Shown piece by piece: positions 4,573 through 8,625 of a stretch of 64,000 nucleotides of DNA. The notes below the pieces were generated by a model. The model was given only the letters and a program-made list of their open reading frames with translations, was not told the origin of the DNA and did no database searches. The first letter of the stretch is position 1; each line of letters begins with the position of its first letter. Source of the stretch: Haloarcula vallismortis ATCC 29715 (GTDB taxonomy: Archaea > Halobacteriota > Halobacteria > Halobacteriales > Haloarculaceae); assembly GCF_000337775.1 (NCBI RefSeq), contig NZ_AOLQ01000004.1:124001-188000 (forward strand), written 5' to 3'. A program made the position numbers and the translations under genes.

Positions 4573-4646
4573 CCGCCCTTAGCTCAGACTGGTAGAGCAG
4601 TCGACTGTAGATCGACTTGTCCCCCGTTCAAATCGGGGAGGGCGGA
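4573..4646 (+). tRNA. tRNA-Tyr (GTA anticodon)
   Basis: A 74-nt cloverleaf. The acceptor stem CCGCCCT/AGGGCGG is fully paired with discriminator A. The D arm contains AGCTC...GAGCA. The anticodon stem GTCGA/TCGAC holds loop CTGTAGA with anticodon GTA at 4607-4609, and the T arm has GTTCAAATC. The C1-G72 pair is the archaeal/eukaryal tyrosine identity element. No intron is visible, and CCA is not encoded at the 3' end. Confidence 0.95.
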
Positions 4647-6491: not shown

Positions 6492-7481
6492 GTGAACCGA
6501 CGACAGTTAGGGACGACAGGGTACGACGTGACAGCTGTCGGGCTCGGAACCTGGAACATCGGTGGTGACTGGGGCGATGTCTCGGCTGAGGAAGGACGAG
6601 ATACGGTCCGGACCGCGCTTGATGCGGGCGTCGACTTCATCGATACCGCCGACGTGTACGGCGACGGCTTCAGTGAGCAGCGCATCGCCGAAGTGCTCGA
6701 CGAACGCGAGGTCCGCGACGAAGTGACCGTCGCGACGAAGGCCGGCCGCCGGCTTGACCCGCATACGGCAGAACGCTACAACTACGAGAACCTTGCCGAG
6801 CACGTCGACCGCTCGCGGGAGTTCCTCGGGGTTGACACGCTCGAACTCCTGCAACTGCACTGCCCACCGACCGACGCCTACTACCAGCCGGAGACGTTCG
6901 ACGCCCTGGCGCAGTTGAAAGAGGAAGGGAAGGTCGATCACTGCGGCGTCAGCGTCGAACGCGTCGAGGAAGCGCTGAAAGCCATCGAGTATCCGGAAGT
7001 CGAGACGGTCCAGATAATTTTCAATATGTTCCGCCAGCGACCCGCGGAGCTGTTCTTCGAGGAGGCCAAGCGCCGCAGCATCGGCGTCATCGTCCGGGTC
7101 CCGCTGGCTTCTGGGCTCCTGACGGGCAAGCTCTCCCGGGATATGGAGTTTCCCGAGAACGACCACCGAAACTTCAACATCGAGGGCGAGGCGTTCGACC
7201 GCGGCGAGACTTTCGCGGGCCTCCCGGTTGATGCGGGTTTCGACGCCGTCGACGAACTCAGCGGCTACGTCCCCGAGCGGATGACGATGGCCCAGATGGC
7301 GCTGCGCTGGATTCTGGACCACGACGCGGTGTCGACGGTTATCCCAGGCTCGACCAACCCCGAACACGTCCGGGCGAACGCAGCCGTCAGCGAGATGGCC
7401 CCGCTCTCGAATCAGGTCCACGGCGCGGTCCGAGACATCTACGAGGAGTACGTCTTCGAGGACGTCCACCACCGCTGGTAG
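6492..7481 (+). CDS. aldo/keto reductase
   Basis: NAD(P)H-dependent (beta/alpha)8 oxidoreductase of 329 residues. N-terminal LGTTGYDVTAVGLGTWNIGG and the catalytic Asp/Tyr segment DTADVYGDGFSE (Asp, Tyr) are present, along with KAGR (Lys), QLHCPP (His) and a C-terminal cofactor loop VIPGSTNPEHVRANA. The start is GTG at 6492; the next in-frame codons read straight into the conserved N-terminus and no ATG fits as well. Substrate is unknown; family members reduce aldehydes and ketoses or act on sugar derivatives. It is monocistronic, with a long non-coding stretch downstream. Confidence 0.88.
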   Translation: MNRRQLGTTGYDVTAVGLGTWNIGGDWGDVSAEEGRDTVRTALDAGVDFIDTADVYGDGFSEQRIAEVLDEREVRDEVTVATKAGRRLDPHTAERYNYENLAEHVDRSREFLGVDTLELLQLHCPPTDAYYQPETFDALAQLKEEGKVDHCGVSVERVEEALKAIEYPEVETVQIIFNMFRQRPAELFFEEAKRRSIGVIVRVPLASGLLTGKLSRDMEFPENDHRNFNIEGEAFDRGETFAGLPVDAGFDAVDELSGYVPERMTMAQMALRWILDHDAVSTVIPGSTNPEHVRANAAVSEMAPLSNQVHGAVRDIYEEYVFEDVHHRW

Positions 7482-7965
7482 CCGCCACTTCGCAGATATA
7501 TATGATTACATACATCTTTTCACGCCGGTATAGTACGATTAGAGTCCCAAAACGTGGATCAGGATTCTATTGAAGAGGACGTCGCTGTACGTGTATTAAT
7601 CTACGAAAACTGACCATTCAACGGACGACATACATATGAATACAGACAGTTTCTGGGTGTCGTTATGTAAGGATTCAATAACGTGTCTGACGTGCTATCG
7701 AGTGTGCTGCGCCTCTCAATAGCAACTACCACTCGGCAGTCAGCAGACGATAGGTATGCTCCTGCCACCGTAAGCGTCCGTCCTGAGAAAACTCGGGTGG
7801 GACGACATTGAACGGCTCTCTGCTGCAGGCCGATGTCGGCGGGACGATTCCCGAAGACGAGCTCAGTCTCAGCTCGGGCCCGTAAGGAGCCTGCGGTTAC
7901 TTTACGGACGTGTTGGGGACCGAGGCCGGGTGGCAAACCCGGCGTGGAACCGTCCCGTACAGGGG

Positions 7966-8031
7966 AGCATGGAACGGTGGGCGTCGGGAGAGTACGAGCA
8001 CGAAGCGTGCTCGCACATAGTCTTCCATGCT
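7966..8031. repeat. nested inverted repeat (stem within stem)
   Basis: Outer arms AGCATGGAA (7966-7974) and TTCCATGCT (8023-8031) enclose a tight inner hairpin CGAGCACG-AAG-CGTGCTCG (7995-8013). Both are perfect. The arrangement could fold as a structured RNA or mark the end of a mobile element. Confidence 0.5.
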
Positions 8032-8190
8032 ATCCACTGTTTGTTATACAGCTCTTTATCTGCTGACAGCCGACAGGAGGACGCTACCGAACGCCGTTAC
8101 GCCGGCTGGAAGGACATCGCTGTTGAACGCCGTAACTGGCGCTTCGGCAGGTGTTACAGCCACTGGCTTCGGCTATTACTGGCCGTTTGT

Positions 8191-8284
8191 GGCGAACTAG
8201 TCGCCTGCTACCGGCCGGACTTTAGTTCGCCACCACACTCGCTCCGGTGTGGGACAAGTCGGCCCACTGCGGATGCGACGCAGT
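8191..8284. repeat. three consecutive hairpins
   Basis: GGCGAACTA/TAGTTCGCC at 8191-8199 and 8223-8231, CCACAC/GTGTGG just after it, and CCACTGCG/CGCAGTGG ending around 8284. The last hairpin lies immediately downstream of the minus-strand gene that ends at 8290, so part of this array may act as its terminator. Confidence 0.45.
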
Positions 8285-8289
8285 GGTTC

Positions 8290-8625
8290 TTACTCTTCGG
8301 CAGTGAGTTTCGGGCCTGGCTTCCAGGTGTTGCCTTCGAGGACAACGAGGTCGTAGCGTTCGAGCACTTGGAGCGTATCGACGACCGCCTGCGCGTCGAA
8401 GGAGACGGTCATATCCTCGGGCAGTTGCTGTGCGATTGCACTGCGTGTCCCACCGTCCATCCGGACCACCGTATCAAGCAACTGTTCGAGGTCGTCGAGC
8501 AGCGAGACGAGCGATGTCGACCCCTCGTCTTCTGTTGCCAGTTTCGACATGACTTCGTCGTAATTTCCCGATATCTCCATCGATACGGACACGGCTTCGC
8601 CTTCGAGGTCTTCTTCGTCTCCCAT
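8290..8625 (-). CDS. small acidic hypothetical protein
   Basis: A 111-residue, strongly acidic protein that I do not recognise. Residues 1-20 are hydrophilic, the middle (SLVSLLDDLEQLLDTVVR) forms an amphipathic helix, and the C-terminal half (AIAQQLPEDMTVSFDAQAV, then LQVLERYDLVVLEGNTWKPG) could be a small winged-helix or alpha/beta domain. A TATA-like stretch at 8646-8650 on the minus strand points to leaderless initiation at ATG 8625 rather than 8643 or 8706. Soluble, probably cytoplasmic; function unknown. It is flanked on both sides by long non-coding DNA. Confidence 0.6.
   Translation of the reverse strand: MGDEEDLEGEAVSVSMEISGNYDEVMSKLATEDEGSTSLVSLLDDLEQLLDTVVRMDGGTRSAIAQQLPEDMTVSFDAQAVVDTLQVLERYDLVVLEGNTWKPGPKLTAEE

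Follow-up and report, generated by a model that had tools for sequence, protein, structure and literature searches.

To our knowledge, few haloarchaeal small RNAs have a known role. Nearly 2800 small RNAs have been reported for one haloarchaeon (PMC6560208). The description of sRNA132 from Haloferax volcanii presents an intergenic, structured RNA whose fold was predicted by aligning relatives, and reports a deletion defect and a target operon for it; the predicted target sites given there lie inside frames or in 3′-UTRs, not at 5′ ends (PMC6560208). Transcript data of a halite community have yielded intergenic small RNAs conserved among Halobacteria, of which 22 are listed without an assigned function, in a report whose main text does not contain the name Haloarcula (PMC7002113). 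Archaeal RNase P RNA (RF00373) and SRP RNA (RF01857) are stable structured RNAs. The candidate RNA described here resembles sRNA132 in its intergenic position and in having a structure predicted from relatives, the halite-community RNAs in its conservation and intergenic position, and RNase P and SRP RNA in being predicted to be stably structured. Unlike sRNA132, for which a deletion defect and a target are on record, and unlike the RNAs drawn from transcript data, it is a candidate predicted from sequence comparison, and it is likened to sRNA132 by description.

The gap under study, 7482–8289 (808 bases; C4:131482–132289 of its own genome), lies in the window, the whole stretch of 64,000 nucleotides that was analysed, between an aldo/keto reductase gene and a neighbour gene of 112 codons whose DUF5797 match scores 19.4 bits against a cut-off of 25. 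When the gap was compared by blastn with 60 genomes, matches appeared in 15, its own included, all of the same genus; the window’s own locus and its 14 relatives make up the 15-locus comparison set. Local blastn and alignment show that the sequence from about 7905 is conserved beside the minus-strand neighbour gene at all 15 loci and that 7482–7904 is replaced, shortened or missing in many relatives. Read on the minus strand, the 15-sequence alignment has a conserved order of promoter-like block, variable spacer, hairpin 1, C-rich linker, hairpin 2, hairpin 3 and ..GGTCC (Table 1), and the RNA sits wholly between 7481 and 8290. We think it likely that the gap holds an independent gene for a small non-coding RNA, encoded on the minus strand, that would act in trans. 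Elsewhere in the gap, 7482–7749, just after the aldo/keto reductase gene, is 70–76% identical in four genomes of the genus (G019, G027, G003 and G031), with no gene that could be named. Between the RNA and the aldo/keto reductase gene, two relatives carry fragments of a gene for a BrkB/YihY-type membrane protein (L004:1343–1472 and L005:1915–2044); the BrkB-type gene (PF03631) is intact in L006, and the remnants suggest gene loss in the gap in more than one lineage.

Table 1 Features of the gap and its flanks, in window coordinates
Feature	Position	Strand	Basis or observation
Aldo/keto reductase gene	6492–7481	plus	Flanks the gap, on the strand opposite to the candidate RNA
Decayed 3′ end of a small protein gene (‘coding-like tail’)	7777–7885	plus	tblastn, two frames, E 0.001 and 4e-4
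Putative RNA 3′ edge (..GGTCC)	7917–7924	minus	GGT nearly invariant
Hairpin 3 (GCCGGG...CCCGGC)	7925–7943	minus	95.2% of cells paired
Hairpin 2, 11 bp including inner 3, apical loop UCCCCU	7949–7978	minus	Its two helices: 96.7% and 100% of cells paired
C-rich linker CUCUCCCGACGCCC, unpaired in the structure model	7979–7992	minus	Most columns invariant or nearly so, 15 loci
Hairpin 1, 9 bp, contains the inner arms of the nested repeat	7993–8015	minus	99.3% of cells paired, 15 loci
Spacer, variable sequence, fixed length	8017–8031	minus	Identity 0.599; length constant at all 15 loci
57-aa open frame, no conserved gene	8027–8200	plus	Stops, start and codon positions in 14 relatives
Promoter-like block AAAGAG..GTATAACAAA..GGAT (putative BRE/TATA element)	8032–8057	minus	Mean pairwise identity 0.914, 15 loci (measured on 8056–8032)
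Neighbour protein gene, 112 aa	8290–8628	minus, same strand as candidate RNA	DUF5797 match below cut-off

Across the 15 loci, mean pairwise identity is high in the block (0.914) and the RNA (0.896) and lower in the spacer (0.599) and the 3′ flank (0.588). TATAAC lies 35 nt upstream of CG(A/G)GCAC at every locus, with a constant distance from TATA to hairpin 1. A spacer free in sequence and fixed in length is the pattern expected between a promoter and a start site, and transcription is predicted to begin near 8019–8021, a position that rests on the usual spacing from TATA to start. Despite its fixed distance to the RNA, the block is a poor fit to the haloarchaeal TTWT/CGAAA motifs used for comparison (PMC4983044).

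The neighbour gene adjoins the RNA on the same strand at 15 of 15 loci, a constancy also expected if the RNA were a piece of that gene’s 3′-UTR released by processing, and in L079 (genome G004), the relative that has diverged most, only 48 nt separate the stop of the gene from the block, compared with about 230 nt in the window. We nevertheless regard a 3′-UTR origin as unlikely, because the RNA is preceded by the promoter-like block at fixed spacing, conservation is poor between the gene and the block, and the gene is present in 26 of the 32 genomes of the genus whereas the RNA is found in 15, leaving 11 that have the gene and no recognisable RNA. L079 also shows that the block and the RNA stay together, as there the distance from gene to block has changed and the block, its spacing and the RNA have been kept.

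The RNA core extends over about 100 nt, from about 8019 to 7917 on the minus strand, and is formed by three hairpins and the C-rich linker. Its first hairpin belongs to a nested inverted repeat that the initial annotation had pointed out and that is present as described, with outer arms at 7966–7974 and 8023–8031 and inner arms within 7993–8015. Conservation applies to the inner hairpin, with its nearly complete pairing across the comparison set, and not to the outer arms, which form 9 of 9 pairs in the window and, at the other 14 loci, 4–8 of 9 in the plus reading and 5–8 of 9 in the minus reading. Because of their overlap with hairpin 2 and with the sequence preceding the predicted start, the outer arms were kept out of the RNA model. 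Mean pair probability in hairpin 1 is at least 0.93 in 14 of the 15 sequences and 0.58 in L007. Within hairpin 2, UGCUCCCCUGU is invariant across the 15 loci. The loop of hairpin 3 undergoes single-base length changes, which argue against a protein being read through it on either strand; together with the intergenic position and the poor conservation of the overlapping 57-aa frame in relatives, they mark the RNA as non-coding. In L014 the pair probability of hairpin 3 is 0, a value put down to a MAFFT placement one base off, which lowers the pairing counts of this hairpin. Conservation drops at the putative 3′ edge, to 0.84 and then 0.57 in successive 10-column steps, and visual inspection showed no T-run terminator. 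A two-fold switch was weighed because CGUAC in hairpin 1 and GUACG in hairpin 2 are complementary, and was rejected: the alternative fold is about 14–25 kcal/mol worse than the three-hairpin fold and its pairing has a probability of 0.0 in all 15 sequences.

Taken as a whole, the 808-base gap folds well on the plus strand (z −5.0, from 20 shuffles only). The window’s core (7916–8020, 105 nt) has a fold z of −5.9 on the minus and −2.7 on the plus strand, and none of 299 random 105-nt stretches of the window reaches −5, the lowest being −3.34. Over the 15 loci the minus-strand z ranges from −3.27 to −5.67 and lies beyond the plus value each time, narrowly so in L006; one of the 299 random stretches equals or passes the weakest locus. 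Standard pairs occupy 397 of 405 stem cells (98.0%) in the minus reading and would occupy 355 in the plus reading, a gap that owes much to two invariant G–U pairs of the chosen model, so that a count of one-sided changes is fairer. Of the stem pairs changed on one side only, with pairing preserved on just one strand, six favour the minus and one the plus strand, a small count. Double-sided changes affect 1 of 27 pairs, a level reached by 63 of 500 shuffles; being rare and not beyond shuffles, they leave the structure to rest on strand bias, energies and constancy, not on covariation.

The stems are near-palindromic and would also form in a plus-strand transcript that started before 7917 and ran through the hairpins. 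RNAalifold on a 170-nt alignment does give a lower consensus energy on the plus (−84.4) than on the minus strand (−79.7), and at 4 of the 15 loci (L006, L007, L009 and L012) the minimum energy of the core is lower on the plus than on the minus strand. Such a transcript is nonetheless quite improbable, given that z is weaker on the plus strand at every locus, that the stem changes favour the minus strand, and that the other side offers no conserved block and a sequence before 7905 that is replaced in many relatives. Short perfect inverted repeats could instead mark a DNA-level element, that is, protein-binding palindromes devoid of RNA function. The strand-biased keeping of pairs, the conservation of a linker and a loop that are unpaired in the model, and the strong fold make this highly improbable, and the candidate RNA is likely to be encoded on the minus strand.

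The initial annotation had seen in the gap the possible debris of a mobile element, in which a plus-strand coding-like tail vaguely resembled TnpB C termini and the nested repeat might belong to an omega RNA. The tail is real, but it is the end of a decayed gene other than TnpB. The corresponding small protein is intact in relatives such as L006 and L012, where it finds nothing above cut-off in Pfam (best DUF7130, E 0.09), and it may be PRC-barrel-like. With that visual resemblance as the one point in its favour, debris of a TnpB or IS200/IS605 element with an omega-RNA-like end can hardly account for the locus. The four PF07282 matches of the genome lie on contigs C38, C15 and C2 and at C4:85154, none of them at C4:131482–132289, and the three plus-strand frames tested gave no match to any TnpB family of Pfam or NCBIfam. 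The element matches once in its own genome, and its neighbour gene is the same at 15 of 15 loci. What stands of the proposed structured RNA is the conserved three-hairpin core, which is read on the minus strand and not interpreted as an omega RNA.

A frame ending at 8200 and likened to a membrane anchor did not survive comparison either. In the 14 relatives, reading the 57-aa frame meets an earlier stop in 10, a stop at the same codon in 1, one at codon 62 in 2 and none within 80 codons in 1; L008, L010 and L011 remain open beyond its end, and its ATG is kept in 1 of the 14. Differences fall at the three codon positions in numbers of 121, 116 and 100 (11 comparisons with the window’s copy), without a third-position excess, an even spread as in non-coding DNA, and the likeness of the first 11 or so codons comes from DNA-level conservation of the promoter-like block. 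A PetC membrane-anchor reading was rejected at E 0.0017 and 18.5 bits, against a curated cut-off of 37.1, with the frame absent from most relatives.

A covariance model built from the 15 loci, R1, matches the window at 7916–8019. Its strong matches (E 2.9e-13 or better) fall in 15 of the 32 genomes of the genus, one in each and in the same 15 as found by blastn; across the order they fall in 14 of 293 genomes, all within the genus, the fifteenth, G023, being missing from that list. Other R1 matches (E 0.07–0.99) were judged to be chance, and the weak ones in G001 and G026 are on different contigs from the neighbour gene. Applied unfiltered to 14 neighbour-gene loci (11 in the genus and 3 outside it) from genomes with no strong match, the model reached at best 12.1 bits (E 0.28), again judged chance. 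A pattern for the RNA core retrieved six named records, all of them Haloarcula (H. amylolytica, H. sebkhae, H. mannanilytica, H. salina, H. japonica and H. argentinensis). The element had no match in plasmid and phage collections or in one pattern scan of viral contigs. At the Rfam 15 gathering score the whole window yields a single tRNA (4573–4646) and no match for the candidate RNA, and a permissive Rfam search of 7400–8400 gave one chance match (E 1.2). Among the titles and opening lines of abstracts screened, none described this Haloarcula RNA.

Several known RNA classes were considered and set aside. RNase P and SRP RNA have no match in the window at gathering score, and the genome’s copies above cut-off lie on contigs C69 and C25. 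A second RNase P RNA-like match was observed outside the window (G000:C4:256035–256276, L024; 52.1 bits, E 1.4e-13, below the 84-bit cut-off), in addition to the copy above cut-off on C69. A riboswitch or mRNA leader was rejected for the window, where the next gene, that of the aldo/keto reductase, is on the opposite strand; this applies to the window and not to every relative, as a gene for a DUF326 Cys-rich protein lies downstream of the RNA on the same strand in two of them (L010:1005–1352 and L014:1019–1393). H/ACA and C/D guide RNAs were discounted on visual inspection only.

We infer the transcription, exact ends and mode of action of the small RNA from these conserved features. A promoter at about 8057–8043 would drive transcription from near 8020 to about 7917, and the product would fold into three hairpins connected through the C-rich linker. 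As a trans-acting small RNA, it may serve as a stable scaffold that presents the linker and the invariant UCCCCU apical loop to a partner, which could be G-rich mRNA stretches or a protein. In its own genome, the complement of the linker with one mismatch allowed occurs at 3 further sites, against 2 for a control pattern, with no enrichment, and the exact 11-base complement of the apical loop occurs only at the RNA’s own locus. With both searches empty, imperfect pairing or protein binding is left, and antisense action is as yet without support. A lack of start-site targets would not be decisive, as the predicted sites of sRNA132 lie away from 5′ ends. That the RNA belongs to a clade-specific Haloarcula family with a structural and not an antisense role, using the C-rich linker and the UCCCCU loop to bind or sequester a protein, is a possibility we entertain only tentatively.

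The locus looks like a previously unrecorded candidate small RNA gene of Haloarcula, found so far in part of the genus and of a kind that is already well populated. A ‘broken, hairpin-rich gap’ can conceal a gene on the opposite strand. With sharp bounds, a fixed neighbour and defined genomes that have or lack the RNA, the candidate gene is directly testable by knock-out or by comparison of species.
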